This document shows positions 47,154-62,327 of a stretch of 64,000 bases of DNA, in pieces. Both the position numbers and the translations under genes were made by a program. Numbering within the stretch: the first letter of the stretch is position 1; each line of letters starts with the position of its first letter. Source of the DNA: Martelella mediterranea (GTDB lineage: Bacteria; Pseudomonadota; Alphaproteobacteria; Rhizobiales; Rhizobiaceae); NCBI RefSeq assembly GCF_021021415.1, contig NZ_JAINWJ010000008.1, positions 1 to 64,000 of the forward strand, given 5' to 3'. A model generated the notes under the pieces. The model did no database searches. It was not told where the DNA came from and was given only the letters and a program-made list of their open reading frames with translations.

Positions 47154-47322
47154 CACCAGCACCCATAATCCCTTTCCCGCCCCGAGCCTGGATGCGGCGT
47201 TCCATATATCGAAGGAAAACCCTGGCAGTTACCGGATGGTATCGGGAAGCTCGACCGGACAGGGAATACCATGTGGCAGTGTCGTTCGAAGCGCCGGAAT
47301 ATACCGCCGATGTCGATGCGAG
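47154..47322. other. Junction between the amidase gene and a truncated fcl gene
   Basis: 169 bases with no recognisable gene. Where an intact fcl would show its N-terminal half, the sequence is unrelated, so a recombination or deletion end point lies close to 47322. No transposon ends or target duplications were seen. Confidence 0.5.
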
Positions 47323-47739
47323 ATGCCGGCGCTGATCCGCAAGGCGCATGAGGCCAAGGCCTCGGGCGCGAAGGAAATCGTGGTGTGGGGCACCGGCACA
47401 CCGCTGCGCGAGTTCCTCCATGCCGACGACTGCGCCGACGCGCTGGTCTTCCTGTTGGAGAATTATTCCGGGGAAGAGCACGTCAATGTCGGTTCCGGCA
47501 CGGATATCTCGACCCTCGATCTGACAAAGCTGGTCTGCAAGGTGGTCGGCTTTGACGGCGAGATCGTCCACGACGTTTCCAAGCCCGACGGCACGCCGCG
47601 CAAGCTGATGAGCGCGGACAAGCTCAGCACCATGGGCTGGACGCCGAAGATCAGCCTTGAGGACGGTATCCGCGATGCCTATGACGCTTTTCTCGCCGGC
47701 AATTTTTCCGAGCGGGCGTCCGCCGAAAGCCCTCATTGA
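47323..47739 (+). pseudogene. fcl: Truncated GDP-L-fucose synthase (C-terminal part only)
   Basis: About 138 residues matching the C-terminal half of GDP-fucose synthase (WcaG/Fcl): MPALIRKAHEAK, VVWGTGTPLREFLHADDCADA, HVNVGSGTD, SKPDGTPRKLM and LGW-like MGWTPKISLEDGI. The intact enzyme (about 310-320 residues) also needs the N-terminal NADP-binding GxxGxxG and the Tyr-Lys catalytic pair, all missing here. Homology begins abruptly at 47323. No other fucose or polysaccharide genes are nearby, so it is a stranded remnant marking a rearrangement. Confidence 0.85.
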
Positions 47740-48095
47740 TCATTATTCTGAAATCAATTCCACGGGTCGGGACGTGGCGGCCTGTTCATGATGCCGAGCC
47801 ATCGAGGTTGCTGCGCGCGAAAATGCGCCCGCGCAGCTGAAATCTTCAGCCTCCGCGAGAATGTGGCGCTGGTGTGAGTCCACAAATTCGAGAGTCGTAA
47901 AGTTGCCGGAACGGGCGCGCCAGCATCAGTGCGTCTGCCATCTGGCGCGCAAAATGTGTGACGATTCGGCCACAGGCTGGGAAATTCGGGCGCCTTCTTC
48001 CTTATTAGGATACTAGATTACCTTAACGTCATATATCTTTCCATTTGGGACGAGGAGCCAAGAGCGTTCCGGTTTAGCGTGAGGAGGAGCAAGCG
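47740..48095. promoter_or_regulatory. 356-base leader with the fadL promoter region
   Basis: No gene seen. It contains a perfect 9-bp inverted repeat GCGCGCCAG/CTGGCGCGC (47915-47950, 18-base spacer), a small hairpin GCTGAA/TTCAGC (47836-47850) and, near its right end, the 13-bp dyad described separately. GAGGAGGAG lies just before the fadL start. Confidence 0.45.
48023..48035. promoter_or_regulatory. Candidate fatty-acid operator, copy before fadL
   Basis: TTAACGTCATATA, one base from TATACGTCATATA found at 58465-58477 and (reverse strand) 61923-61935. It lies about 60 bases before the fadL start. Confidence 0.5.
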
Positions 48096-49379
48096 ATGAA
48101 CAAAACCAGCCGAATACATTTTCTGATGCTGGGCGCGGCCACGGTACTGTTAGCGGGAACGGCATCCGCCGGCTCGTTTGCGTTGCGTGAGCAGAGCGCT
48201 GTCGGCCAGGGGCAGGCCTTTGCGGGCGCGGCGGCGGGACAGGCCGGAATCGGCTCGATGTACTGGAACCCGGCGACGATGGCCGCCTTTGAAGGGTTTC
48301 AGGTCGAAGTCGACCTTTCAGGCATCTTCCCCTATTCCGACATAACGCCGACAAGCGGGACCGCGCCGGCACTTCTGATGCTGGGCGGCACCGGTTCGAC
48401 CGGCGATATGGCGCTCGATGCGGCGCTGCCGGCCGGCTATGTGAGCTATCAGGTCAGCGACGATGTCTGGCTGGGCCTGGGCCTCAACACGCCCTTCGGC
48501 CTCGAGACGAAGAATCCGTTCAATTATGCGGGGCAGATTTACGCCCGCACCTCGGAAGTTCTCAGCTATGATATCAACCCGACCATTGCCTGGCAGGTCA
48601 ATGACTGGCTGGCGATCGGCGGCGGCATCGAGGCGATGTATTTCAAGACCCGGCTGACGCAGGCGATGAGCCCGTTCCCGGGTGCGCCCTCGGCCGAGCT
48701 TGAGGGCGATTCCTGGGGCGTCGGCTTCACGCTCGGCTTCACGTTGACGCCGATGGACGGCACGGTGATCGGCGTCGGCTATCGCTCGCAGATCAAGCAG
48801 AACCTCGAAGGCCATCTCGATATCGGCGCCATGATGGGACCGCTTCCGCCCGGCTCCTATCCGGTGAAAACCGACATCACACTGCCCGACCAGATCACGG
48901 TCGGCCTCAGCCAGGCGCTCACCGATCAGCTGACCCTGAACGCCGGCTTCGAATGGACCAACTGGAGCGTTTTCAACAATTTCCCGGTCTACGGCACGTC
49001 CGGTTTCACCAATGGCATGCAGCTCACTGACCTGCCCTTCGAATATGATGACGGCTACTACCTCTCCGTCGGCCTCGAATATGCCATGAACGAGCGGTTC
49101 ACCGTGCGCGGCGGCGTCGGCTATGAATGGTCGCCGATCTCGACCACCAACCGCGACCTGCGCCTGCCCGACAGCGATCGCGTTCATGCCTCGATCGGCG
49201 GCACCTACAGCTGGAACGACAAGCTGTCGCTCGACTTCGCCTATGAGCATATCTTCACCACCGGCGACACCGACATCCAGCTCGACGCCAACAATCCGCA
49301 TTACGCGGGTCTCGCCTTCTTCGGCGACGTCGATGCGAACGTCAATATCGTATCGGCCAGCCTGCGTTATCGCTTCTGA
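48096..49379 (+). CDS. fadL: FadL/OmpP1-family outer-membrane transporter
   Basis: 427 residues. A signal peptide of about 25 residues (ending ASAG) is followed by the plug region FALREQSAVGQGQAFAGAA and SMYWNPATMAAF, the family NPA hallmark. Multiple barrel strands follow, ending in VSASLRYRF with the terminal Phe of outer-membrane barrels. It lets long-chain fatty acids or other hydrophobic molecules cross the outer membrane. It sits before the beta-oxidation genes and shares a promoter dyad with fadD and etfB, which supports a lipid substrate. GAGGAGGAGC precedes the ATG. Confidence 0.92.
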   Translation: MNKTSRIHFLMLGAATVLLAGTASAGSFALREQSAVGQGQAFAGAAAGQAGIGSMYWNPATMAAFEGFQVEVDLSGIFPYSDITPTSGTAPALLMLGGTGSTGDMALDAALPAGYVSYQVSDDVWLGLGLNTPFGLETKNPFNYAGQIYARTSEVLSYDINPTIAWQVNDWLAIGGGIEAMYFKTRLTQAMSPFPGAPSAELEGDSWGVGFTLGFTLTPMDGTVIGVGYRSQIKQNLEGHLDIGAMMGPLPPGSYPVKTDITLPDQITVGLSQALTDQLTLNAGFEWTNWSVFNNFPVYGTSGFTNGMQLTDLPFEYDDGYYLSVGLEYAMNERFTVRGGVGYEWSPISTTNRDLRLPDSDRVHASIGGTYSWNDKLSLDFAYEHIFTTGDTDIQLDANNPHYAGLAFFGDVDANVNIVSASLRYRF

Positions 49380-49555
49380 GGCTTACAGCAATTCCAGGTG
49401 AAGTGGACACCGGTTCACCGTCCGGAATTGCGTAAAAACAAAGAGATAGCGCCGCTCCCCGGCCGAAACCGGGGGCGGCACGGCCTGTGGCGGTTTCTGG
49501 GGAGGATACCGCCGCACCGGCCGATGGCTCGGAAAAACGAAACGGGAGGAGTTTC

Positions 49556-49966
49556 ATGATCAGAAAAGTTCTCGGCGCTGCACTCGCAGCAAACCTGATG
49601 ATGGCCTCGATGGCCGGCGCCGCCTCGCCGGACGGCAAGTGGCTGACGGAGAGCGGCAAGACACAGGTTCAGATCGCGCCTTGCGGCAGCAATTACTGCG
49701 GCACCATTGTCTGGCAGAAAACGCCGTCCAACGACGTCAAGAACCCCGACGCCGCAAAGCGCAGCCGCCCGCTCGTCGGGACTGAGATGCTCTCAGGCCT
49801 CTCGGCCGATGGCGACAATGCCTGGAAAGGCAAGCTCTACAATTTCGAGAACGGCAAGACCTATACCGGCAAGATGGAGCTGACCGACGCCAACACGCTG
49901 AAGCTCTCCGGCTGCATCATGGGCGGCGTGATCTGCAAGAGCCAGACCTGGCGCCGGACGAAATAG
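49556..49966 (+). CDS. DUF2147 family exported protein
   Basis: 136 residues. Residues 1-22 (ending MAGAAS) are a signal peptide. The mature part is a small beta-rich domain of the DUF2147 type: PDGKWLTESGKTQVQIAPCGSNYCGTIVW, DGDNAWKGKLYNFENGKTYTG and LKLSGCIMGGVICKSQTW, with four cysteines that may pair. Function is unknown; members are often found near lipid or envelope genes. GGGAGGAGTTTC before the ATG supports the start. A hairpin with T-run features follows. Confidence 0.88.
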   Translation: MIRKVLGAALAANLMMASMAGAASPDGKWLTESGKTQVQIAPCGSNYCGTIVWQKTPSNDVKNPDAAKRSRPLVGTEMLSGLSADGDNAWKGKLYNFENGKTYTGKMELTDANTLKLSGCIMGGVICKSQTWRRTK

Positions 49967-49980
49967 GAGATATCAAAAAC

Positions 49981-50015
49981 GCGCGACCGGCCGCCGAAAG
50001 GCAGGCCGGTCGCGC
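49981..50015. terminator. Strong hairpin after the DUF2147 gene
   Basis: A perfect 12-bp stem GCGCGACCGGCC/GGCCGGTCGCGC with an 11-base loop, 14 bases after the DUF2147 stop. The T-run is on the minus-strand side (GTTTTTGATA), so it could also stop transcripts arriving from the SCP2 side. Confidence 0.55.
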
Positions 50016-50021
50016 CAGATT

Positions 50022-50050
50022 GAGGCAGCGCCCTGAACAGACGCTGCCTT
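50022..50050. repeat. Hairpin unit, left copy
   Basis: GAGGCAGCGCCCTGAACAG followed by ACGCTGCCTT; stem AGGCAGCG/CGCTGCCT. The same 29-base unit recurs with one mismatch at 50257-50285. Confidence 0.7.
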
Positions 50051-50082
50051 CAGTTTGTTGCCAACCCGTCCCTAAACTCGGG

Positions 50083-50195
50083 GTCATCCTCGTGCTTGAC
50101 ACGAGGATCCAGGCAGCACGGCCAGTGTCTGCGATAAGACTTAGGAAATCAATCGGTTGACCCGCCTGGATGCTCGGATCAAGTCCGAGCATGAC
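50083..50195. repeat. Two-hairpin intergenic palindromic element, copy 2
   Basis: It has the same plan as the element at 8-121: hairpin at 50088-50106, GATCCAGGC, variable middle, CCGCCTGGAT and hairpin at 50172-50190, then ATGAC. In the first hairpin a G:C pair of copy 1 is T:A here (CCTCGTG/CACGAGG against CCTCGGG/CCCGAGG), a compensatory change. The right hairpin is identical in both copies. It sits between two near-identical hairpin units. Confidence 0.8.
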
Positions 50196-50256
50196 GCCTG
50201 TGGGTGGGGTTGGCGTGCGTGACAATCTCAGACGCTGTGGCTTTGTCAGCAGCCTG

Positions 50257-50285
50257 GAGGCAGCGCCCTGAACAGGCGCTGCCTT
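50257..50285 (+). terminator. Hairpin unit, right copy, with T-rich tail
   Basis: Stem AGGCAGCGCC/GGCGCTGCCT (10 bp, 7-base loop, 50258-50284) followed by TTCGTGTTT on the plus strand. It is nearly identical to 50022-50050 and lies 18 bases from the SCP2 stop. Confidence 0.6.
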
Positions 50286-50302
50286 TCGTGTTTCAGGCGG
50301 AC

Positions 50303-50623
50303 TTAGGAGGCTTCCTCCAGAAGACCGGCGAGTTTCAGCGCCACGCCCTGGGAGCCGCGCACCTTCAGACGGCCGGTGGAAAAGGCCAGCATCGGGTTCA
50401 GCTTTCCCTTGATCAGCTTTTCGAGATTGTCCGAGGTGAGAATGAGCACCGTGTCGGCCTCGGCCTCTCCGCTCTCATCCTCTTCAATCTCGACATTGCC
50501 CTCCGTGGCATCGAGCAAAATTGACCCGGCATCCTTCATGTCGAATCGGACCCGGTAGCCCAGTTCCTCGAGCGCATCGGACTTTGCTTCCATTGCCGCG
50601 ATAAGCGCGCCGATCTCAGCCAT
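50303..50623 (-). CDS. SCP2 sterol-binding domain protein
   Basis: 106 residues, a single SCP2-like lipid-binding domain: VRFDMKDAGSILLDATEG, a very acidic stretch, ADTVLILTSDNLEKLIKGKLNPMLAFSTGRLKVRGSQGVALKLAGLL. The KLNPMLAFSTGRLKVRG block is the family signature. It would bind acyl chains or acyl-CoA in the cytoplasm. It is last in the minus-strand beta-oxidation operon, 33 bases after the acyl-CoA dehydrogenase. Confidence 0.9.
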   Translation of the reverse strand: MAEIGALIAAMEAKSDALEELGYRVRFDMKDAGSILLDATEGNVEIEEDESGEAEADTVLILTSDNLEKLIKGKLNPMLAFSTGRLKVRGSQGVALKLAGLLEEAS

Positions 50624-50656
50624 TGTCGTTCCTTTCCCTTTCGACGCTTCGCCGCA

Positions 50657-52447
50657 TCAAAACGCCATCTCGTCGAGCGCCATCATCGCGGACTTGCCGG
50701 AGCGGATCGCGGCGACGAGGCCGGCCGCCTGCGGCAGGATGCGGGTCATGTAGAAGTCTGCGGTGACGAGCTTGGCCTTGTAGAACTCGGGATCGTCGCA
50801 TTCGCCATCGAGCGCGGCATGGGCGACCTTGGCCGTCCGCAGCCACATCACGCCGAGCGCGACGAGGCCGAAGAGCCGCAGATATTCGGTCGCGGCCGCG
50901 CCGGCCTCCTCCGGGTCCCTCAGGCTCTTTTGGGCGATCTCGGCGGTGCAGAGCTGCAGCCCGCCAAAGGCCTTCGACAGCGGCTGAACCAGATCGGAAA
51001 GCCGGTCATCGTCGATCGCGGCATCGATTTCCGCGAGCGCCGGATGAAAGAACGCACGCAGATAGCGGCCCATATGCGCCGGCATCTTGCGGCCGACGAG
51101 GTCGAGCGCCTGCACGCCGTTAGTGCCCTCGTAGATCATCGAAATGCGGCTGTCGCGGACATATTGCTCCATGCCGTGATCGCGGATGAAGCCATGGCCG
51201 CCATAGACCTGCATGCCGATCGAGGCGGTCTCGAAGCCGAGATCGGTGAACAGCGCCTTGACGATCGGGGTCATCAGCGCGGTGAAGTCTTCCGCTTCCT
51301 TGCGCGTTTCCGGATCGGGGTGGTGCTTCATCATGTCGAGATTGCGCGCAACCCAGCCGCCAAGCGCTCGGCAACCCTCGACATTGGCGCGCATGGTCAT
51401 CAGCATGCGGCGCACGTCGGGGTGGACGATGATCGGGTCGGCGGGCTTGTCCGGATGTTTGGCGCCGGCAAGCGAGCGACCCTGCAGCCGCTCCTTGGCA
51501 TAGGCGACGGCGCCCTGATAGGCCGCTTCCGCCGCACCGAGCCCCTGGATGCCGACGGACAGACGCTCGCTGTTCATCATCGTGAACATGGCGCGCATGC
51601 CCTTGTGCGGCTCGCCGACCAGCCAGCCGGTGGCCTCGTCGAACGACATCTGGCAGGTGGCGGACGCCTTGATGCCCATCTTGTGCTCGATGCCCGAGCA
51701 GGTCACGCCATTGCGCTGGCCCGGCGTGCCATCGGCGTTCGGCAGGAATTTCGGCACCAGAAACAGGCTGATCCCCTTGACGCCCTTCGGCGCATCGGGA
51801 AGCCGCGCCAGCACCAGATGGATGATGTTTTCGGTGAGGTCATGCTCGCCGGCGGAGATGAATATCTTAGAGCCGGTGATCTTGTAGGAGCCGTCATCCT
51901 GCGGCTCCGCGCGGGTTCTGAGCAGGCCGAGATCGGTTCCGCAATGGGCCTCCGTCAGGCACATCGTGCCCGACCACGTGCCCTCGACCATTTTCGGCAG
52001 ATAGGTCTGCTTCAACTCCTCGCTCGCATGGTCGACGATCGCCTGATAGGCGCCGTGGGTGAGGCCCGGATAGAGGCCGAAGGAGAGATTAGCCGCGCAG
52101 CTCATCTCTTCCACCAGCTTGTTGATGGATTCCGGCAGGCCCTGCCCGCCCCATTCCGGAGCCGACGCCATCGCCGTCCAGCCGCTTTCAGCAAACGCCT
52201 TGTAGGCTTCCTTGAAGCCCTTGGGCGTGCGCACGACGCCGTTTTCCAGCACGCAGCCCTCTTCGTCGCCGGTCGCGTTCAGCGGCAACAGGACTTCGGT
52301 GCAGAACTTGCCGGATTCCTCGAGAATGGCGTCGGCCAGGTCCGGCGTGACCTCTTCAAGGCCGGGAATCTCGGGATAGTCGCCGATGCCGATCAGTTCC
52401 TGCAGAACGAAACGCATGTCCCTTATGGGCGCATTATAGACTTGCAT
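50657..52447 (-). CDS. Acyl-CoA dehydrogenase (large, C-terminally extended type)
   Basis: 596 residues, about 200 longer than medium-chain enzymes, with a start MQVYNAPIRDMRFVLQELIG typical of this FadE-like proteobacterial class. FAD and substrate blocks: GTMCLTEAHCGTDLGLLRT, KITGSKIFISAGEHDLTENI, MNSERLSVGIQGLGAAEAAYQ. The region FIRDHGMEQYVRDSRISMIYEGTNGVQALDLVGRK near residue 430 carries the catalytic-Glu-type motif. It makes the first oxidation of acyl-CoA, passing electrons to ETF (encoded at 60-62 kb). Confidence 0.93.
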   Translation of the reverse strand: MQVYNAPIRDMRFVLQELIGIGDYPEIPGLEEVTPDLADAILEESGKFCTEVLLPLNATGDEEGCVLENGVVRTPKGFKEAYKAFAESGWTAMASAPEWGGQGLPESINKLVEEMSCAANLSFGLYPGLTHGAYQAIVDHASEELKQTYLPKMVEGTWSGTMCLTEAHCGTDLGLLRTRAEPQDDGSYKITGSKIFISAGEHDLTENIIHLVLARLPDAPKGVKGISLFLVPKFLPNADGTPGQRNGVTCSGIEHKMGIKASATCQMSFDEATGWLVGEPHKGMRAMFTMMNSERLSVGIQGLGAAEAAYQGAVAYAKERLQGRSLAGAKHPDKPADPIIVHPDVRRMLMTMRANVEGCRALGGWVARNLDMMKHHPDPETRKEAEDFTALMTPIVKALFTDLGFETASIGMQVYGGHGFIRDHGMEQYVRDSRISMIYEGTNGVQALDLVGRKMPAHMGRYLRAFFHPALAEIDAAIDDDRLSDLVQPLSKAFGGLQLCTAEIAQKSLRDPEEAGAAATEYLRLFGLVALGVMWLRTAKVAHAALDGECDDPEFYKAKLVTADFYMTRILPQAAGLVAAIRSGKSAMMALDEMAF

Positions 52448-52464
52448 GGTTTTCGTCCTCTTTC

Positions 52465-54798
52465 CTAGTTTCTCAGGGGTTTGCCGGTTTCGATGACGCT
52501 CTCGAACCGGTCGAGCGTCTTCTTGGTCTTCACGAGACGCATGAAGCTGTCGAGCTCCAGCTCGAGAATTGTGTCCTCATCCACCGGATCGATGATATCG
52601 GTGTCGCCGCCGGTCAAGACGGTCGCAAGCTCGCGCGCCACCGTCAGGTCGTGCGGCGTGGCGATCCCGCGCCGGGCGAAGCCCTCGGCGGCCATTTCCA
52701 GAGCGATCTTGCCAGATGGCCCGGGCAGCACGATTTCCCGCGGCTCCGGCGGCTGGTAGCCGTCAACCATGGCAAGCGCCCGCGCCTTGGCATCGGCGAG
52801 CAGCCGGTAGCGGTTCATGGTCACGCCGTCATCCTTGCCGAGGAACAGGAGTTCCCGCGCCTCGTCGGCCGACTTGGCGACGGTCGCGGTCGACAGCATT
52901 TCGAAGACCTTGGCCGTTGCCGGCATCGGCCCCTTGGGCGCCGCCGGATTGTTCTGCCAGCGGGTCAGCATTTCCCGGCACCCGCCCCAGGCAGGCACCA
53001 GGCCGACGCCGCATTCCACGAGGCCGATATAGGTTTCGGCATGCGCCTGCACCGCATCGGAATGCAGCACGATCTCGCAGCCGCCGCCAAGCGCCATGCC
53101 GGAGGGCGCGGCAACCACGGGGAACGGCGCATATTTCATCTTGCGATAGGTCGCCTGACCGTTGCTGACCAGCTTCTCGATTTCGCCCCAGGCGGCGATA
53201 TTGGCGGCAAACAGCGCCAGCCCCAGATTGGCGCCGACCGAGAAATTCGTGCCCTCATTATAGATCACCAGCGCCTTGTAGTTCTTCTTCACAAGCCCGA
53301 TGGTCTTGTCGAGCAGCGTCATGATCTGGTCGTCCATGGCATTGGCCTTCGAGGTGAACTCGAAGCAGACGACGCCATCGCCGATATCCCAGGCCGAGGC
53401 CGAACCGTTCTTCAGAAGCGGCTTGCTGACGCGCTTGATATCCTCGAGCATCAGCACGCCCTCGGGCCGCGCGATATCGCGGTAGCTCCCATCCGGCTGG
53501 AGGGCCTGACGCTTTCCGTCCTCGATGCGGTAGAATGTGCGCTCGCCCGCCTTTTCCAGCACGTCGGGAACAGGAATATTTTCCTCACGCATGCGCGCGA
53601 CGAGCCACGGCGCGCCGATCATGTCGATTAGTTCGAACGGTCCCCAGCGCCAGTTGTAGCCAAGCCGCATGACCTCGTCGATCGACGCGATATCGTCGGC
53701 TGCGTCACCGACGAGGCTTGCCGCATAGGACAGCGTATTGGCCATGACGCCGAAGGCATAGCGGCCAAGCGGTCCGTCGATTTCCATCACCTGACGCGGC
53801 TTGCGCGCCGCCTTCAGTTCGGGGCTCTCGACCTTTGCGGACGTGCTGTAGCGGCCGCTGCCAAGATCGATCGCCTCCTTGATCTTCCGGCCGCCTTCGC
53901 GGTTCAGCCGGTAGAAGCCGCCCTTGCCCTTGCGGCCGGTATAGCCGTCGGCGATCATCTTGTTGACCAGCGGCAGGTCGCGATTGGTCGCGTGGAACAT
54001 GTCGCCGTCCGGCAACGCGCTCTTCAGGCTTGCGCCGATATGCGGCATCAGGTCGAGGCCCACGAGATCGATCAGGCCGAATATGCCTGTCTTGGGAATG
54101 CCGAAGGGCTTGCCCATCACCGCGTCGGCCTCTTCCACCGTCAGCCCCTCTTCCATCGCCTTCAGCACGCCGAGCTGGATCCAGGTGACGCCGAGACGGT
54201 TGGCGACGAAGCCGGGACGATCGTTGCAGACCACGACGCTCTTGCCGAGCTTGCGGTCGGCGAAATCAGTCACGGCCGCGGCGAGCGCTTCGTTGGTATC
54301 AGGCCCCGTCACCAGTTCCATCAGTCGCATGTAGCGCGGCGGATTGAAGAAGTGGGTGATCATGAAATCACTGACGAACGCCTCCGGCATGCCTTCCACA
54401 AGGCGGGCGAGCGGAATGGTCGAGGTGTTCGACGAGATCGCCGTGCCCGGCTTGCGCACCGCGTCGATCCGCCGGTAGAGCGCCTGCTTGACATCGAGCT
54501 TTTCGACAACGACCTCGATGATCCAGTCGACGCTGGCGAGCTTTTCGAGATCGTCCTCGATATTGCCGGTTTCCACCAGTTTCGCGGCCCGCTTCGACAT
54601 GAACGGCGCGGGATCAGCCTTCTTCATCCTGGCGACCGCGGTTTCCGCGATCACATTGCGGTTTTCAGCACCATCCGGAACGATATCCAGCAGCAGCACC
54701 TTGTGACCGGCATTGGCGACCTGGGCGGCAATGCCCGATCCCATCACGCCGGAGCCGATGACGGCGACCGTGTTGATCTTGAATGCTGTATCAGACAT
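52465..54798 (-). CDS. 3-hydroxyacyl-CoA dehydrogenase/enoyl-CoA hydratase fusion (FadN-like)
   Basis: 777 residues. The N-terminal half is 3-hydroxyacyl-CoA dehydrogenase: NAD motif VAVIGSGVMGSGIAAQ, then ITHFFNPPRYMRLMELV with the catalytic His, and VVVCNDRPGFVANRLG. The enoyl-CoA hydratase domain is C-terminal, with GMALGGGCEI as oxyanion hole and Glu near 595 in LVECGVGLVPAWGG. This order is the reverse of FadB and matches Bacillus FadN. It performs the hydration and second oxidation steps. The start is ATG at 54798, overlapping the thiolase stop by one base; the frame could run further upstream but only antisense-like sequence lies there. Confidence 0.94.
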   Translation of the reverse strand: MSDTAFKINTVAVIGSGVMGSGIAAQVANAGHKVLLLDIVPDGAENRNVIAETAVARMKKADPAPFMSKRAAKLVETGNIEDDLEKLASVDWIIEVVVEKLDVKQALYRRIDAVRKPGTAISSNTSTIPLARLVEGMPEAFVSDFMITHFFNPPRYMRLMELVTGPDTNEALAAAVTDFADRKLGKSVVVCNDRPGFVANRLGVTWIQLGVLKAMEEGLTVEEADAVMGKPFGIPKTGIFGLIDLVGLDLMPHIGASLKSALPDGDMFHATNRDLPLVNKMIADGYTGRKGKGGFYRLNREGGRKIKEAIDLGSGRYSTSAKVESPELKAARKPRQVMEIDGPLGRYAFGVMANTLSYAASLVGDAADDIASIDEVMRLGYNWRWGPFELIDMIGAPWLVARMREENIPVPDVLEKAGERTFYRIEDGKRQALQPDGSYRDIARPEGVLMLEDIKRVSKPLLKNGSASAWDIGDGVVCFEFTSKANAMDDQIMTLLDKTIGLVKKNYKALVIYNEGTNFSVGANLGLALFAANIAAWGEIEKLVSNGQATYRKMKYAPFPVVAAPSGMALGGGCEIVLHSDAVQAHAETYIGLVECGVGLVPAWGGCREMLTRWQNNPAAPKGPMPATAKVFEMLSTATVAKSADEARELLFLGKDDGVTMNRYRLLADAKARALAMVDGYQPPEPREIVLPGPSGKIALEMAAEGFARRGIATPHDLTVARELATVLTGGDTDIIDPVDEDTILELELDSFMRLVKTKKTLDRFESVIETGKPLRN

Positions 54799-55934
54799 CA
54801 GATGCGCTCCAATATGGTTGCGATGCCCTGGCCGCCGCCGATGCACTGGGTGGCGAGCGCATACTTGCCGCCCTCGCGCTGCAACAGCGACGCCGCCTTG
54901 CCGACGATGCGCGCGCCGGTGGCGCCGAGCGGATGGCCAAGCGCAATGGCGCCGCCATCGATATTGATCCGGTCTTCGGCAAGGCCGAGATCGCGGATGC
55001 AGGCCAGCGACTGGCTGGCGAAGGCTTCGTTGAGCTCGATCACATCCATGGCGCCGGCATCGAGGCCGGCGCGCTCCAGCGCCTTGCGGCTGGCGCCGAC
55101 CGGTCCGATGCCCATGATTTCCGGCGCGCAGCCGCTGATGCCGACGGAGGTCAGGCGGGCGAGCGGCGTCAGGCCGTTCCTCATCGCATACTCCTCCGAG
55201 CACACCAGCACGGCCGAAGCGCCATCCGTCAGCGGCGAGGAGGTGCCGGCGGTGACCGTGCCGTCGGACGAGAAAGCCGGTTTCAGGCCGGCCAGCGCCT
55301 CGGCCGTGGTTTCCGGACGGATGCAGCCGTCTTCAGAAACCGTTCCGCCCTTCACGCTGATCGGCACGATCTCGTCCTTCAGCCGACCTTCGCTGCGGGC
55401 AGCGGTGGCCTTTTCCTGGCTCTTCACGGCAAAGGCTTCCTGTTGCTCGCGTGAAATCTGCCATTTGGTCGCGACGTTTTCCGCCGTATCGCCCATGCCG
55501 ATATAGGCGCCGGGCACCTTGGCATAGAGCGCCGGGTTCGGCAGCGGGTTGAAGCCGGTCATCGGCACCCGGCTCATGCTTTCCACGCCCGCGCAAATGA
55601 AGACTTCGCCGGCGCCGAGCTGGATCTGGCCGGCGGCCATGTGGATCGACTGCATCGACGAGCCGCAGAAGCGGTTGACCGTGACGCCGCCGATCGACTG
55701 CGGCAGATCCGCCATCAGCACGACGAGACGACCGAGGTTGAAGCCCTGCTCGGCTTCCGGAAAGGCGCAGCCGAGGATCAGGTCCTCGATATCCTCCACC
55801 TTGACGCCGGTCTTCTCGACGAGCCCGCGCACCACCTGGGCAGCCAGATCATCCGGACGGACACGGGCCAGTTCGCCCTTTGTGGCAAGAGAAAACGGCG
55901 AGCGCTGATAGCCCGCGATGACAACGTTGGTCAT
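54798..55934 (-). CDS. fadA: Acetyl-CoA acyltransferase (thiolase)
   Basis: 378 residues. Catalytic Cys90 is in VNRFCGSSMQSIHMA, His334 in LGHPLGATGAR and Cys364 in TQCIGGGQG. It cleaves 3-ketoacyl-CoA with CoA, releasing acetyl-CoA. It is the first gene of the thiolase/FadN-like/acyl-CoA dehydrogenase/SCP2 run, with overlapping or close junctions. A 229-base gap separates it from the MerR gene upstream on the same strand, so it may have its own promoter there. Confidence 0.94.
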   Translation of the reverse strand: MTNVVIAGYQRSPFSLATKGELARVRPDDLAAQVVRGLVEKTGVKVEDIEDLILGCAFPEAEQGFNLGRLVVLMADLPQSIGGVTVNRFCGSSMQSIHMAAGQIQLGAGEVFICAGVESMSRVPMTGFNPLPNPALYAKVPGAYIGMGDTAENVATKWQISREQQEAFAVKSQEKATAARSEGRLKDEIVPISVKGGTVSEDGCIRPETTAEALAGLKPAFSSDGTVTAGTSSPLTDGASAVLVCSEEYAMRNGLTPLARLTSVGISGCAPEIMGIGPVGASRKALERAGLDAGAMDVIELNEAFASQSLACIRDLGLAEDRINIDGGAIALGHPLGATGARIVGKAASLLQREGGKYALATQCIGGGQGIATILERI

Positions 55935-56163
55935 GGCATACTCCCAAGAAAGGTGATGTTTTGATTTGAAAATCGATCCGCAAAAGCCCGCGCCTTTCGG
56001 CCTTCAGGCACAATGCGGTGTCCGCCGGTTCCCCATGAGCGGGCAACCGGCCGTGAAACTGTGGCAGCGATTTCAGAAAACGGGCACGCCTGCATCCGTT
56101 TGAAAGGGGCGGAAAAACCGGCGGCCATATGATCGCCCGGCGCTCTGGCGCAGCCTGAGCCGA

Positions 56164-56592
56164 TCAGCTGGCGAGTTTGCCCGCCTTTTGCGACAGCCGC
56201 TCTTCGGTTTCGCTCACCACAGCCTTCAACTCCGACAGGGTAAGATCGATCGCGACCTTCTGTTCTTCCAGAAGCTGGATACGTTCGTGCACCGCCCGCA
56301 AAAGCGCCGTCAACTGCTCCTGCTGCGTATGGTCGACCTTGTATAGGTCCAGAAACTCCTTGATCTCCTCGAGCGAGAAGCCAAGCCGCTTGCCGCGCAG
56401 AATCAGGATCAGACGGGCGCGATCGCGCTGCGTATAGATGCGCGTCTTTCCGGCGCGCCCCGGGGTTATCAAACCCTTGGTCTCGTAGAACCGCAAGGCA
56501 CGCGGCGTGAGCCCGAGCTCTTCGGCCAACTGGGTCACCGTAAAAAACTGATCCGCCACGTAAAACCTTCTCTTTCCTGAACGATTCACCAT
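56164..56592 (-). CDS. MerR-family regulator of the fatty-acid genes
   Basis: 142 residues. The N-terminal winged helix (about 15-85) has FTVTQLAEELGLTPRALRFYETKGLI, PGRAGKTRIYTQRDRARLILILRGKRLGFSLEEI-type blocks. A coiled-coil dimerisation helix follows. It lacks the Cys ligands of metal sensors, as in MerR regulators of acyl-CoA metabolism (LiuR-like). It lies between fadD and fadA on the same strand. ATG at 56592 has GGGGG five bases upstream; a GTG at 56559 behind AGAAGG is a serious alternative. It is the best local candidate to bind the shared TATACGTCATATA dyad. Confidence 0.87.
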   Translation of the reverse strand: MVNRSGKRRFYVADQFFTVTQLAEELGLTPRALRFYETKGLITPGRAGKTRIYTQRDRARLILILRGKRLGFSLEEIKEFLDLYKVDHTQQEQLTALLRAVHERIQLLEEQKVAIDLTLSELKAVVSETEERLSQKAGKLAS

Positions 56593-56606
56593 AGCGGCCC
56601 CCTGAC

Positions 56607-58376
56607 CTAGGCGTCAACATGACTGTCTGCCTCCCCGGCATTCGCCTTTGCGCCATCATGAGAGGCGCGACGCTCTTCCTCGATCAATTCCTTTTTCGAA
56701 AGCTTGCCAACCATGGTTCTCGGCAGCGTATCGCGAATTTCGATGTCGCGCGGCAATTCGATCTTGGAGAGGCGCGGAACCAGGAATTCATGCAGCTCCT
56801 CAACCGTGACCTGCGCATCCTTGCGCAACGAAACGAAAGCCTTCGGCCGCTCGCCGCGATACGCGTCATACACGCCGATCACGATCGCTTCGGCCACCGC
56901 ATCATGCTCGTAAAGCGCCTCCTCGATGACGCGGGGATAGACATTGTAGCCCGAGCAGATGATCAGATCCTTCAGCCGGTCAACGAGATAGAGATAGCCG
57001 TCTTCATCCAGATAGCCGACATCGCCGGTTCGAAGAGCCCCGTCGCGCAGCACATGGGCAGTCTCATCCGGACGGTTCCAATAGCCCGACATGACCTGTG
57101 GACCGCGCACCCAGAGCTCGCCCTTGACGCCTTTCGGCAGCAGCACGGCCGGATTTTCAGAATCCCGGATTTCCAGCGTCGTTCCCGCCATGGGAAGGCC
57201 GGCAGACCCCGGACGGCCTGAACTGCCGTCCAGCGGATTGACGGAGACGACCGGCGAGCATTCCGTCAGGCCGTAACCTTCCGCAAGCCGGCACCCGGTC
57301 AGCGTTTCGAAGTCGACGCGCACTTCATTGGGCAGCGGCGCGCCGCCCGAGATGCACAGTTTGAGCGACTCCAGATGCACCTTGCGCGTCTGCGCAACGG
57401 CATTGATCGCGCCATAGATTGTCGGAACGGCCGGGAACAGCGTCGGTTTGCGCCGTTCCATCAGCGGGATCAGTTCATCGCGATTGAAACGCGGCACCAG
57501 AAGCATCGAGGCGCCGATCTCAACCGCATAGAGCATGCAGACGGTCATGGCGAAGACGTGGAAGAACGGCAGCACGCACATCACCATCTCTTCGCCCTCC
57601 ACCAGCAGACCGCACTGGTCACCCTGATGAACCAACTGGCGCGCATTGGCGACCAGCGCGCCATGCGACAACATCGCGCCTTTCGGCACCCCGGTCGTGC
57701 CGCCGGTATATTGCAGGACGGCAATATCGGACGGGACGGTTTCGATTGCCGGAACGGGCGCGTTTTCGGCATCCCGGATCAGCGCATCGAACCGCAGATG
57801 CGTGCGATCGTCAGGAATACGCGCCAGGTCGGAGCGCTTGAACAGGCGGAACAGCAACCCCTTCAGCGGCGGCAGAACCTGCGCCATCGGGCAGACGATC
57901 ACCTGCTTCAGATCCGTCTCGCCGACAACGGGACCGAGATTCTTGTAAACCGCCTCCAGGTCGAGCGTGATCATGAACTCGGTTCCGGAATCACGAATCT
58001 GATCGCGAATTTCGCGGCTGGTATAGAGAGGATTGAAGTTGACGACGATGCCGCCCGCCTTCAGCACGGCAAAGAAGCTAATGACCGAATACGGACAATT
58101 TGGAAGGAAGAGACCAACGCGCGTACCCTTGCGAACCCCGATGGACGCAAGCCCCGCGGCAAACCGGTCGGACAGGGCGTCAATCTCGCCATATGTCCAG
58201 GTGCGATCAAAAAACTCCACGGCCGTTTTATCGGCGAAGCGCGCGACCGCTTCAGCCAGAAACGCCGTCAGCGTATCGGCGTTCCGGTCCGCCGCGCCAT
58301 TGGCCGCGCCGGCCTCAGCGCTGTTGAGCGTATCTGCCCCGCCGCCCGGGGTTTCGGTATCGAAATCCTCTTGCAC
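56607..58376 (-). CDS. fadD: Long-chain fatty-acid-CoA ligase
   Basis: About 589 residues, ANL superfamily. Motifs: phosphate loop LQYTGGTTGVPKGAM, EGYGLTECSP, LRTGDVGYLDEDGYLYLVDRLKDLIICSGYNVYPRVIEEAL and the catalytic Lys in RTMVGKLSKKEL. It activates imported fatty acids with ATP and CoA at the inner membrane. The start is uncertain: GTG at 58376 behind GAAGGAGGAGGC is chosen; GTG at 58424 behind AAGGA is possible. The gene is followed 14 bases later by the MerR gene, so they are probably cotranscribed. Confidence 0.92.
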   Translation of the reverse strand: MQEDFDTETPGGGADTLNSAEAGAANGAADRNADTLTAFLAEAVARFADKTAVEFFDRTWTYGEIDALSDRFAAGLASIGVRKGTRVGLFLPNCPYSVISFFAVLKAGGIVVNFNPLYTSREIRDQIRDSGTEFMITLDLEAVYKNLGPVVGETDLKQVIVCPMAQVLPPLKGLLFRLFKRSDLARIPDDRTHLRFDALIRDAENAPVPAIETVPSDIAVLQYTGGTTGVPKGAMLSHGALVANARQLVHQGDQCGLLVEGEEMVMCVLPFFHVFAMTVCMLYAVEIGASMLLVPRFNRDELIPLMERRKPTLFPAVPTIYGAINAVAQTRKVHLESLKLCISGGAPLPNEVRVDFETLTGCRLAEGYGLTECSPVVSVNPLDGSSGRPGSAGLPMAGTTLEIRDSENPAVLLPKGVKGELWVRGPQVMSGYWNRPDETAHVLRDGALRTGDVGYLDEDGYLYLVDRLKDLIICSGYNVYPRVIEEALYEHDAVAEAIVIGVYDAYRGERPKAFVSLRKDAQVTVEELHEFLVPRLSKIELPRDIEIRDTLPRTMVGKLSKKELIEEERRASHDGAKANAGEADSHVDA

Positions 58377-58464
58377 GCCTCCTCCTTCTTGCGCGGACAC
58401 CCTCCTCAAGGCTTCTGTCCGCACAATTTTCCTTCGACATGACCATTACGATACCCTATAAACG

Positions 58465-58477
58465 TATACGTCATATA
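58465..58477. promoter_or_regulatory. Candidate fatty-acid operator between fadD and thioesterase
   Basis: TATACGTCATATA forms the dyad TATA-nGnCn-TATA. It lies in the short divergent gap and could serve both genes. It is the same 13-mer as before etfB (reverse strand). Confidence 0.55.
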
Positions 58478-58560
58478 ATTCAAGACCGATGTTAACGGAT
58501 CTGGCACGGACCTTGAAGACAGTGTATTCCCACGGTTACAGAAGGGTTTGGGGCATCATC

Positions 58561-59139
58561 ATGTATGTTTGGGGAAGACTGATCAGGGCCATGATCAAAG
58601 CGAAATTCGCACCTGCGATCCACCCGCCTGAAGATATCTCCTCGATTACCCTGAGCGTCTGGCCCCAGGACCTCGACATCAACATGCATGTGAACAATGG
58701 CAGATATCTGGCCTTCATGGATATTGGCCGGTTCGATCTGCTGGCACGATCCGGGCTCGGCGCAAAGGTCTTGCGCGAGAAATGGCAGCCTGTTCTGACC
58801 GGGGTGAACGCGCGTTACCGGCGCTCTCTTGGGGTCTTTCAGCGGTTCCGGCTCGAAACCAGGCTCGCCGGCTGGACAGAGAACTCGCTGTTCATGGAGC
58901 ACCGGATCATCCCTCTCAGCGGCCGGCACAAGGGTGAAGTCGCTGTGACGGCGACAGTGCGCGCGGTAATGCTGAAGGATGGCCGAAAGCTGCCCGCGAC
59001 GGAAATGCTCTCCCCGCTCGGCCCGCTGCCGGAAAGCCCGCCACTGCCGGAAGCCTATGCGCTGCTGATGTCGCCGGAGGAACGGGCAAGGGCGCGCGGC
59101 GCCGAGGACGCAAACGCGCGAAACGCACGGCTCGGATGA
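58561..59139 (+). CDS. Acyl-CoA thioesterase (hotdog fold, THEM-like)
   Basis: 192 residues. The hotdog core shows VWPQDLDINMHVNNGRYLAFMDIGRFDLL with the catalytic Asp/Asn region, then RRSLGVFQRFRLETRLAGW. It cleaves acyl-CoA to free acid and CoA, balancing FadD. The ATG at 58561 gives the typical MYVWGRLIR start and has GGGG seven bases upstream; the frame extends to 58489 without a ribosome-binding site. It diverges from fadD over a shared promoter dyad and is followed by the nitronate monooxygenase gene 22 bases later. Confidence 0.85.
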   Translation: MYVWGRLIRAMIKAKFAPAIHPPEDISSITLSVWPQDLDINMHVNNGRYLAFMDIGRFDLLARSGLGAKVLREKWQPVLTGVNARYRRSLGVFQRFRLETRLAGWTENSLFMEHRIIPLSGRHKGEVAVTATVRAVMLKDGRKLPATEMLSPLGPLPESPPLPEAYALLMSPEERARARGAEDANARNARLG

Positions 59140-59161
59140 CCTTTCCGAGGAGGAGGACATA

Positions 59162-60082
59162 ATGCTGAACCCGACATCGCTATCGGCGCGCCTGCGCCTT
59201 CCGGTGATCGCCGCCCCGATGTTTCTGGCATCCGGGCCGGAACTGGTGACCGCCTGCTGCCGCACCGGCATCTGCGGCACCTTTCCCGCTCTCAACCAGC
59301 GCACCAGCGACGGTTTTGCCGACTGGCTGCGCGCGATCGAGGCGGACCTCGCCGATCACGACAATCCTGCCCCCTTCGGCGTCAATCTGATCGTTCACAA
59401 GAGCAATGCCCGCCTTGAGGCCGATCTGAAGATCGTCGTCGCGCACAAGGTGCCGCTGGTAATCACCTCGCTCGGCGCGGTCAAGGCCGTGGTGGACGCC
59501 GTCCATTCCTATGGCGGGCTGGTTTTCCACGATGTCACCAACCGAAGGCATGCGGAAAAGGCGGTCGAGGCCGGCGTCGACGGCATCATTGCGGTTGCCG
59601 CCGGGGCCGGCGGTCATGCCGGCACGCTGAGCCCGTTCGCGCTGGTATCAGAAATCCGCTCGTTCTTTTCCGGCCCGCTGGCGCTCTCCGGCGCGATCTC
59701 GACCGGCGCGCATATCGCGGCAGCGCGCGCGCTCGGGGCCGATTTCGCCTATATCGGCACCCGTTTTCTGGCGACAAGCGAAGCAATCGCCCCCGAGGCC
59801 CACAAGCAGATGATCGTTGACGGGCGGGCGGGCGACATCGTCTACACGCCGGCGATATCGGGCGTTCCGGCCAATTTTTTGAAGTCCAGCATCACGGCCG
59901 CCGGACTCGACCCGGACAATCTGCCGCCGCATGGCGCGATGAATTTCGCCTCCGAGGCCAGGGCCTGGAAGACGGTATGGTCGGCCGGTCAGGGGATTGG
60001 CGCGATTGACGACATCCCGACGGTGGCAACGCTCGTCGACCGGTTTGACGGCGAATACCGGGCCGCCTGCGCGCGGCTCTGA
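59162..60082 (+). CDS. Nitronate monooxygenase family FMN enzyme
   Basis: 306 residues, a TIM barrel of the NMO/2-nitropropane dioxygenase family. Blocks: PVIAAPMFLASGPELVTACCRTGICGTF, GVNLIVHKSN, AVAAGAGGHAGTLSPFALV with the FMN-phosphate Gly-rich loop and catalytic His, and GADFAYIGTRFLAT. It oxidises alkyl nitronates, a detoxification role; related proteins act as enoyl reductases, so a lipid role is possible here. It has GAGGAGGAC before the ATG and is cotranscribed with the thioesterase gene. Confidence 0.9.
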   Translation: MLNPTSLSARLRLPVIAAPMFLASGPELVTACCRTGICGTFPALNQRTSDGFADWLRAIEADLADHDNPAPFGVNLIVHKSNARLEADLKIVVAHKVPLVITSLGAVKAVVDAVHSYGGLVFHDVTNRRHAEKAVEAGVDGIIAVAAGAGGHAGTLSPFALVSEIRSFFSGPLALSGAISTGAHIAAARALGADFAYIGTRFLATSEAIAPEAHKQMIVDGRAGDIVYTPAISGVPANFLKSSITAAGLDPDNLPPHGAMNFASEARAWKTVWSAGQGIGAIDDIPTVATLVDRFDGEYRAACARL

Positions 60083-60099
60083 GGCCCGCCAAGACAGAA

Positions 60100-60131
60100 A
60101 AGCCGGCCGGAACCATCGCTCCGGCCGGCTT
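60100..60131. terminator. Convergent terminator between NMO and etfA
   Basis: A perfect 12-bp stem AAGCCGGCCGGA/TCCGGCCGGCTT with an 8-base loop. On the minus strand it is followed by TTCTGTC after the stem Ts, fitting the end of the etfBA transcript; it can also stop the plus-strand operon. Confidence 0.8.
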
Positions 60132-60144
60132 GGTATCTCAATAC

Positions 60145-61074
60145 TCAGAGCTTTCCGGTCAGCTCCGGCACCGCATCGAAAAGATCGGCGACAAGGCCGT
60201 AATCCGCGACCTGGAAGATCGGCGCTTCCTCGTCCTTGTTGATCGCGACGATCACCTTCGAATCCTTCATGCCGGCCAGATGCTGGATCGCGCCGGAAAT
60301 GCCGCAGGCGATGTAGAGATCCGGGGCCACCACCTTGCCGGTCTGGCCGACCTGCCAGTCGTTCGGGGCGTAACCGGAATCGACGGCGGCGCGCGAGGCG
60401 CCGACGGCCGCACCGAGCTTGTCGGCCAGCTTTTCGATGATCGCGAACTGTTCAGACGAGCCGAGGCCGCGCCCGCCGGAAACCACGATGCGGGCCGAGG
60501 TCAGCTCCGGCCGGTCGCTTTCGGCAACCTTGTCCGCGACCCATCTGGCGTCAACCGTCGCATCCGGCGCGCTCACCTGCTCGACAGGAGCCGCGCCCCC
60601 CTCGCCCGCCGCCTCGAAACCGGACGTGCGGATGGTCACGACCCGCACCGGATCGCGCGATTTCACCGTCTGGATCGCGTTGCCGGCATAAATCGGCCGG
60701 TCGAAGGTCTCGGCGTCGAGAATGGCGGTGACATCCGAAATGATCATGACATCGAGACGGGCGGCAACGCGCGGCAGGATGTTCTTGCCGTCGCTGGTCG
60801 CGGGCGCGGCGATGACGTCGTAATCGCCCGCAAGCGCGACGATCTGCTCGGCGGTCGCCTCCGCCAGCCGATGGGAGAGCGCATCGGCATCGGCCACAAG
60901 CACCTTCGAAACGCCGTCGATCCGCGCGGCCTCGTCGGCGGCGGCGGAAAGGCCCGCGCCGGCAACAAGCAGGGTGACATCACCGAGGCCGGAGACGGCC
61001 TTGACCGCCCGCGCGGTCGCATCGCGAACCAGAGCGTCGCCGCTGGTTTCGGCAAGCAGCAGAACAGACATCAC
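60145..61074 (-). CDS. etfA: Electron transfer flavoprotein alpha subunit
   Basis: 309 residues. The C-terminal FAD domain holds [39 protein letters not shown] and [19 protein letters not shown], the FAD-binding signature. With EtfB it forms the soluble carrier that takes electrons from acyl-CoA dehydrogenases to ETF-quinone oxidoreductase. It overlaps etfB by four bases at 61071-61074, so etfB-etfA is one operon ending at the hairpin at 60100-60131. Confidence 0.96.
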
Positions 61075-61832
61075 AGCACCCCCGCTTCGGTTTTCAGCTT
61101 TTCGATCAGCGCATCGACGGTGTCGACCTTGATGCCGCCCTTGCGCCCTTCCGGCTCGCGCGTGCCCACGATTTCCAGACGCGGGGCGAGATCGACGCCG
61201 TAATCCGCCGCAGTCTTCTCCTCCAACGGTTTCTTCTTGGCCTTCATGATATTGGGCAGCGAGGCATAGCGCGGCTCGTTGAGGCGCAGGTCGGTGGTGA
61301 TGATCGCCGGCAGCGCCACCGAGATCGTCTGCAGCCCGCCATCAACCTCGCGCGTAACCTCCGCCCGACCATCGGCAATCTCAACCTTGGAGGCGAAGGT
61401 GGCCTGTGGCCAGTCAAGCAGCGCCGCCAGCATCTGGCCGGTCGCGTTCATGTCATTGTCGATCGCCTGCTTGCCGGCGATCACCAGATCGGCCTTCTCG
61501 GCCTCGATGACGCCCTTCAGCAGCTTGGCGACGGCGAGCGGCTCGATATCGGTCGCAGCGCTCTCGGCGGCCACGATCAGGACCGCCCGGTCGGCGCCCA
61601 TGGCGAGCGCGGTGCGCAGCGTTTCCTGCGCCTGGCGAACGCCGATGGACACAGCGATCACCTCTTGCGCCACGCCCTTCTCCTTCAACCGGATCGCCTC
61701 TTCCAGGGCGATCTCGTCGAAGGGGTTCATCGACATCTTGACGTTGGCGAGGTCGGGACCGGACCCGTCCGGCTTCACCCGCACCTTCACATTGTAATCG
61801 ATCACCCGCTTGACGGGCACAAGCACTTTCAT
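61071..61832 (-). CDS. etfB: Electron transfer flavoprotein beta subunit
   Basis: 253 residues. It begins [16 protein letters not shown], the family start, with [17 protein letters not shown], the AMP-binding [20 protein letters not shown] region and the signature-like [31 protein letters not shown] broken into recognisable parts. Start ATG at 61832 with GGAGGA nine bases upstream; a longer frame to 62123 runs through the promoter and is rejected. Two overlapping dyads lie 80-105 bases upstream, one of them shared with fadD and fadL. Confidence 0.95.
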
Positions 61833-62327
61833 GGCCGCACATCCTCCGTTTTCCCAGTACGGATAGAAATCTATCCCATCGGCGCCAATAGCTTCCCACG
61901 CCGAAATTACATATAGGTAAACTATATGACGTATAGGGCATATTACAGGACGCGTGGACTTTGCAAGCCCTTTCGAGCGTGACGCGCCGCTTGCGCCAAA
62001 GCCGTCAAACGACTGAACCCAATCGTGGAGGAACTCCGTTCGAAAGATCAATTGCGCGATCGTCAGCCGGCCTCTATCAAGGCGGTTGGCAGGCCGCCCA
62101 GCGGCAGCCGTCCCTGCGACCATGAAAGCACCCGCCGGTCACGCAGCGGTCGTCGACCTGCATAGCCTCGCGCGTGGTGTTCGGCAGACGCGAAACTCCC
62201 GTCTCAAACGATTCTTCAGGGAGTCAATAGCTCTCACCGAACAACGTGGATGTTATAGCCAAATCAGGGCGCCCCTTATGATACAGGAGGCCCCCTTATT
62301 GGCTCCGGGCCACGACAGCCGCGCGCC
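61833..62327. promoter_or_regulatory. 495-base gap with the etfBA promoter
   Basis: No gene is convincing. Near 61911-61936 are two overlapping dyads (below). From about 61960 to the melA stop at 62328 I see no repeat, terminator or RNA gene that I can support. Confidence 0.5.
61911..61936. promoter_or_regulatory. Overlapping operator-like dyads before etfB
   Basis: ATATAG-GTAAA-CTATAT (61911-61927) is a perfect 17-bp inverted repeat. It overlaps CTATATGACGTATAG (61922-61936), whose reverse complement contains TATACGTCATATA, the same 13-mer as at 58465-58477. Confidence 0.55.

Follow-up and report, generated by a model that had tools for sequence, protein, structure and literature searches.

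A predicted MerR operator shared by fatty-acid uptake and degradation promoters of Martelella mediterranea

A cluster of genes for the import and degradation of fatty acids was present in the first 64,000 nucleotides of contig NZ_JAINWJ010000008.1 of Martelella mediterranea (assembly GCF_021021415.1), the whole of which is called the window here. A dyad of 14 base pairs (bp), TKACSTWWASGTMA, was found before fadL, between fadD and a divergent thioesterase gene, and before etfB (Table 1). The predicted operators are very probably real, and they are likely those of the LiuR-like MerR protein encoded by 56164-56592, which would be mostly a repressor released by acyl-coenzyme A (acyl-CoA) or a related intermediate. 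What was observed directly is that the sites exist, that they are conserved and that they go together with MerR genes of this type. Genomes, contigs and loci are given by our own G, C and L numbers where they have to be told apart.

The first-pass annotation of the window had pointed to a 13-mer, TATACGTCATATA, at these promoters, and its positions were borne out, with exact copies at 58465-58477 on the forward and 61923-61935 on the reverse strand and a copy with two mismatches at 48023-48035 on the forward strand; 100 dinucleotide-shuffled versions of the window had at most two matches (mean 0.10), never three. The genome-wide count with two mismatches, which had been put forward as a check, did not discriminate: the 5,407,764 bases contained 17 matches, of which two were exact (both in the window), 15 had two mismatches and none had one, versus 35 for the reversed pattern, so the 13-mer was not over-represented. 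Many of the two-mismatch places lay inside mechanical open reading frames (ORFs).

Promoters were aligned within the genus for fadD (8 genomes), etfB (7) and fadL (7), and the conserved blocks were TGACSTATACGTWTA at fadD (8/8), CCTATACGTCA at etfB (7/7) and ACCTWAACGTCA at fadL (4/7). As judged from these alignments the conserved motif is the 14-bp dyad TKACSTWWASGTMA, and the 13-mer was misframed. The idea that one regulatory element is common to the fadL, fadD/thioesterase and etfB promoters held, given the genus-wide conservation of the reframed dyad in Martelella promoters, while the outer TATA arm of the 13-mer was not conserved (at fadD the right-hand arm was replaced in relatives by CACCTT, CACTCA or CATGCC), and the proposed frame TATA-nGnCn-TATA gave way to a TGACGTATACGTCA-like dyad centred 4.5 bp away. 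TGACGTATACGTCA with three mismatches was itself discarded as a search pattern, being too loose (218 rows vs 160 in the control).

Conservation was concentrated in the dyad. At the fadD operator 12 of 14 columns were invariant in 8 genomes, versus 28 of 120 flanking columns, and at etfB operator 1 it was 12/14 in 7 genomes versus 10/120. The fadL operator was less sharp, with 10/14 in 5 genomes versus 44/120; the two most divergent fadL promoters, excluded from this count, both have TTACGTATAGGTAA further upstream. In the window, TKACSTWWASGTMA had 1, 3 and 9 matches at 0, 1 and 2 mismatches, and 100 shuffles gave means of 0, 0 and 0.84 with maxima of 0, 0 and 4. The centre of the fadD/thioesterase operator lies 42 bp before the GTG of fadD, and 94 bp before the thioesterase gene if that starts at 58561. 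Between this operator and the fadD start codon (58424-58460), a TCATGTC block (GCATGTC in G003) was nearly invariant in the 8 genomes.

At the position of the second etfB operator the aligned relatives have a weaker copy, degenerate to a varying degree. A second perfect dyad that had been reported at etfB, ATATAG-GTAAA-CTATAT, is present at 61911-61927 and was rejected as an element; it was not kept in the etfB promoters of 6 aligned relatives, and it spans the two tandem operators 20 bp apart. A near-dyad at the fadD/merR junction (56603-56616) had two mismatches to the final pattern and a counterpart in G007; a scan of the six remaining genus loci (L153-L158) found none with at most one mismatch.

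The MerR protein of the window was 98% identical to a protein of M. mediterranea DSM 17316 and 91% to one of M. limonii. PF13411 and PF09278 were above cut-off, indicating a MerR-family DNA-binding region. Members of this family are best known for metal and stress sensing. The protein shares the N-terminal MerR helix-turn-helix with CueR, ZntR, MerR and SoxR, but it fell below their NCBIfam cut-offs and has no cysteine; a metabolite such as acyl-CoA is its likely signal. An orthologue (70-100% identical) was present in 8 of the 13 genus genomes, the same eight that gave the best fadD matches (62-100%), and among these eight fadL was found in seven and the cluster etfB in seven. The fatty-acid cluster of M. 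mediterranea DSM 17316 is carried in full on the 593-kb plasmid pMM593 (L321, NZ_CP020331.1 296882-309856), which may be why only some genomes of the genus have the cluster.

Beyond the genus, the loci used were best matches and not a random sample. Around the merR gene of 29 loci compared with the window genes, six of them from the genus or genus-like, genes of the fadA, fadB or fadE type were present in 19 (fadE only in L021) and only a fadD-like gene in five; L239 had weaker fadA and fadB homologues, and L227, L228, L229 and L234 had no homologue of a window gene. On annotated plasmids, the order fadL-fadD-merR-thiolase-fadB-fadE was found in Alloyangia, adjoining fadD and merR with a thiolase gene nearby and the dyad at the operon promoter in Novosphingobium, merR accompanied by genes of beta-oxidation in Azospirillum, and, in one Sphingomonas, fadD-merR in divergent orientation to fadA-fadB-fadE. 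The MerR relative was often accompanied by fadA, fadB and fadE homologues with the dyad at the promoter of the operon, as in Acidicaldus, Sedimenticola, Cycloclasticus, Azospirillum and, with fadE alone, a Rokubacteria bin. In the last four and in others the dyad preceded the merR match or gene by 25 to 60 bp; in Acidicaldus and two further genomes of its order it preceded fadD by 78 to 109 bp.

Operon starts were represented by 29 regions (300 bp upstream plus 40) from 18 non-genus loci, with at most one mismatch counted as a match. The dyad was contained in 17 of these 29 regions, of which 21 (13 loci) had been chosen after an earlier scan had been viewed, and in four of the eight regions, from L316-L320, that were fixed from annotation beforehand. 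Of the 22 matches in the loci taken whole (305,051 bp), 21 lay inside the 9,889 bp of the regions, and no other of 2,520 half-site-permuted palindromes reached 17 regions (next best 15 and 13, close variants; mean 0.09). Ten of the 23 non-genus loci were excluded here, four without fad homologues and L235-L240 with other gene orders. In L236, L237, L239 and L240 a related MerR gene stands beside a fadD-like gene or fadB/fadA homologues and the dyad precedes a fad-type gene, which in L239 is a fadE of E. coli type. Eight further plasmid loci had upstream of merR an exact box (L325, L329), a one-mismatch box (L323, L327, L330) or none (L324, L326, L328), and on a Rubrobacter plasmid the box was also found at a MerR gene adjoining an isovaleryl-CoA dehydrogenase gene.

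In one family (L227, L228 and L229) the MerR relative (58-63%) lies away from window-gene homologues, and no dyad with at most one mismatch was found in these loci; genes like those of a LivG ATP-binding cassette transporter (below cut-off) occur nearby in L227 and L229. Weaker MerR relatives (L032-L097, 31-48% identical) were set aside, the six that were placed in the first tree falling outside, and many Pseudomonas loci have a different upstream dyad, TTAASTCAAGGTCA.

In a tree of 34 rows (midpoint root) the window MerR fell in a group of 23 mostly fad-linked MerRs (support 92/91), while LiuR was grouped with a Photobacterium MerR and with a second MerR, the core one, from Martelella and S. 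meliloti (97/91). Support was thus moderate, and the Azospirillum and Rubrobacter proteins were outside both groups. The LiuR protein was taken from Marinobacter and was recognized by context, heading a row of isovaleryl-CoA dehydrogenase, carboxylase and 3-hydroxy-3-methylglutaryl-CoA lyase genes, with TTACGTTTACGTAA directly upstream. As far as this one LiuR goes, the window MerR resembles it in family and in having an operator of the same form, a palindrome with ACGT half-sites, but the two are 41% identical and fall in separate, moderately supported tree groups, and in the neighbourhoods compared the window gene adjoins fadD/A/B/E, SCP2, fadL and etfBA and not liu or ivd genes. FadR (GntR family), FadP (TetR) and PsrA, also of the TetR family, which regulate fatty-acid degradation in other proteobacteria, have the role proposed here, the control of fatty-acid uptake together with beta-oxidation, but belong to other protein families, whereas the window protein matched MerR-type models only. 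An excerpt of PMC5343134 lists FadR, PsrA and FadP as regulators of fatty-acid degradation and LiuR for branched-chain amino acids, and LiuR is described as a MerR-family repressor of branched-chain amino acid use in an excerpt of PMC3223726, with an ILV box before liuR in Rhodospirillum rubrum according to one of PMC7238569. No MerR regulator of long-chain fatty-acid genes was found among the literature matches listed, and the original LiuR paper (Kazakov et al. 2009) may cover part of this ground.

A search of the genome with TKACGTWWASGTMA at up to one mismatch gave 13 rows, or ten distinct places, and the reversed control also gave 13 rows; since the number equals the control, it is the position and conservation of the matches that speak for specificity. 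The fadL and etfB operators account for three of the ten, the fadD box with its two mismatches falls outside this list, and most other matches inspected sit within mechanical ORFs. The only other exact match was about 146 bp before mdh, with sucC beyond (both named from protein starts), at C96:87182-87195 (L253). This mdh dyad was present in 13/13 Martelella genomes, exact in ten and with one mismatch in three; 8 of 14 columns were invariant versus 39 of 120 flanking, a weaker contrast, as the region is well conserved overall. Other genera were represented by 29 mdh promoters, the best matches of 115 further genomes; 19 of these promoters had a match with at most one mismatch, many of the matches beside the start codon and perhaps due to chance, and nine had one at a comparable place (-133 to -192; L287, L288, L292, L294, L295, L298, L310, L312 and L315).

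The core MerR, 32-36% identical to the window MerR, was found in each of the 13 genomes (here on contig C52). It lies beside mgtE, as annotated in S. meliloti and as read from the protein start in Martelella.

Table 1. Predicted operators and genes of the fatty-acid cluster in the window
Feature	Position	Strand	Remarks
Predicted fadL operator TTACCTTAACGTCA	48018..48031	.	centre 71 bp before fadL ATG; 0 mismatches to TKACSTWWASGTMA
Predicted fadD/thioesterase operator AAACGTATACGTCA	58460..58473	.	divergent region; 2 mismatches to TKACSTWWASGTMA
Predicted etfBA operator 1 TGACGTATAGGGCA	61927..61940	.	centre 104 bp before etfB; 1 mismatch to TKACSTWWASGTMA
Predicted etfBA operator 2 TTACATATAGGTAA	61907..61920	.	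tandem, 20 bp centre-to-centre from operator 1; 1 mismatch
MerR-type regulator, 142 amino acids, proposed binder	56164..56592	-	Pfam MerR_1 1.3e-16, MerR-DNA-bind 9.9e-13
fadD, long-chain acyl-CoA ligase	56607..58424	-	best matches acyl-CoA ligases; below equivalog cut-offs
fadA, thiolase	54798..55934	-	TIGR01930 above cut-off
fadB-type 3-hydroxyacyl-CoA dehydrogenase/enoyl-CoA hydratase	52465..54798	-	below equivalog cut-offs
fadE-type acyl-CoA dehydrogenase	50657..52447	-	below equivalog cut-offs
SCP2 sterol-transfer domain protein	50306..50623	-	PF02036
fadL outer-membrane transporter	48096..49379	+	PF03349 9e-87
Acyl-CoA thioesterase	58561..59139	+	PF13279
Nitronate monooxygenase family protein	59162..60082	+	PF03060
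etfA	60145..61074	-	below equivalog cut-offs
etfB, accessory copy	61071..61829	-	second etfB on contig C24, 75% identical

Two features of the surrounding sequence were noticed by eye. An open frame at 47236-47739, before fadL, resembles the C-terminal part of a sugar-nucleotide epimerase and is perhaps a gene remnant, and palindromic intergenic sequence at 50080-50200 resembles a dispersed repeat.

According to the proposed mechanism, a MerR dimer would bind the 14-bp dyad T(G/T)AC(G/C)T-WW-A(C/G)GT(C/A)A at the promoters of fadD-merR-fadA-fadB-fadE, fadL and etfBA, with two tandem boxes at the last. It would mostly repress these promoters and be released when acyl-CoA or a related intermediate accumulates, and fatty-acid import, activation, beta-oxidation and electron transfer would then be switched on together. 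The single fadD to fadE transcript, the binding, the repression and the acyl-CoA signal are inferred.

Because operons of other bacteria in which a MerR relative lies beside beta-oxidation genes often carry this dyad at their promoter, the cluster MerR, which the first-pass annotation had named as the natural candidate, is the likeliest reader of the boxes, but probably not the exclusive one. Several results weigh against the mechanism as proposed: the mdh box occurs in five genomes (G004, G005, G006, G009 and G010) without the cluster MerR, and total match counts in these five were not above control; the count in the window's own genome was not raised either; 12 of the 29 operon-start regions lacked the dyad, including both of Alloyangia, both of one Sphingomonas and all three of G222, and most regions were chosen with a scan already in view; and the promoter spacings in Martelella, given below, are mixed. 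The control counts, 17 versus 35 for the 13-mer and equal numbers for the reframed dyad, would suit a chance resemblance of AT-rich promoter sequence, which is nevertheless scarcely credible, being contradicted by the conservation above the flanks, as well as by the shuffles and the permuted palindromes. From the mdh box in genomes without the cluster MerR it follows that a second regulator probably reads the same box, and this is perhaps the LiuR-like core MerR. A stronger version, in which the core MerR is the chief reader and the cluster MerR has another or a minor role, would agree with the mdh box in all 13 genomes (the sole exact match in four of the five without the cluster MerR), with the core gene being present in every genome, with the grouping with LiuR of the two Martelella copies that were placed in the tree, and with the one-mismatch box TGACTTTTACGTCA directly before the S. 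meliloti counterpart. It is quite improbable all the same, since no box with up to two mismatches was found at the core MerR's own promoter in 13 Martelella loci (one two-mismatch match lay elsewhere in L161), and since, in several classes and in one more phylum, boxes at fad promoters occur where a MerR gene adjoins genes of beta-oxidation. In the remaining genome, G006, the second exact box (L273, 1501-1514; G006:C2:311857) is upstream of an ATP synthase b subunit-like gene, as read by eye.

The direction of control was weighed from promoter geometry. MerR activators use 19-20 bp spacers, and the cluster regulator could bind the boxes as a classical activator that untwists such a spacer. At mdh the best -10 was 20 bp from the -35-like half-site in 13/13 genomes, and the mean match at etfB was also highest at 20 bp, in agreement with activation; the corresponding best mean spacings were 15 bp at fadD and 17 bp at fadL. 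In contrast, seven merR promoters of other bacteria, selected for having the box and two of them from strains of a single species, carry TTGACG, a good -35, within the dyad, and their best -10 is spaced 17 bp (six) or 18 bp (one) from it, which on sequence grounds is a repressor arrangement. LiuR, moreover, is termed a repressor in the excerpt of PMC3223726. Activation is rather unlikely, and repression relieved by acyl-CoA is the likeliest mode of the regulator.

With somewhat more doubt than confidence, a wider picture can be proposed. The LiuR-like MerRs whose genes adjoin those of beta-oxidation, found in several orders of alphaproteobacteria, in some gammaproteobacteria and in a Rokubacteria bin, might be master regulators that respond to acyl-CoA and are dedicated to long-chain beta-oxidation, as the counterpart of FadR, PsrA and FadP. 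They might share their box with a core LiuR-like MerR controlling the tricarboxylic acid (TCA) cycle gene mdh, and one DNA code would then couple the breakdown of fatty acids to TCA capacity. If this is true, a regulator and its DNA box could be named for beta-oxidation in many alphaproteobacteria, and a single operator code would serve two MerR relatives, for the breakdown of fatty acids and for a gene of the TCA cycle.

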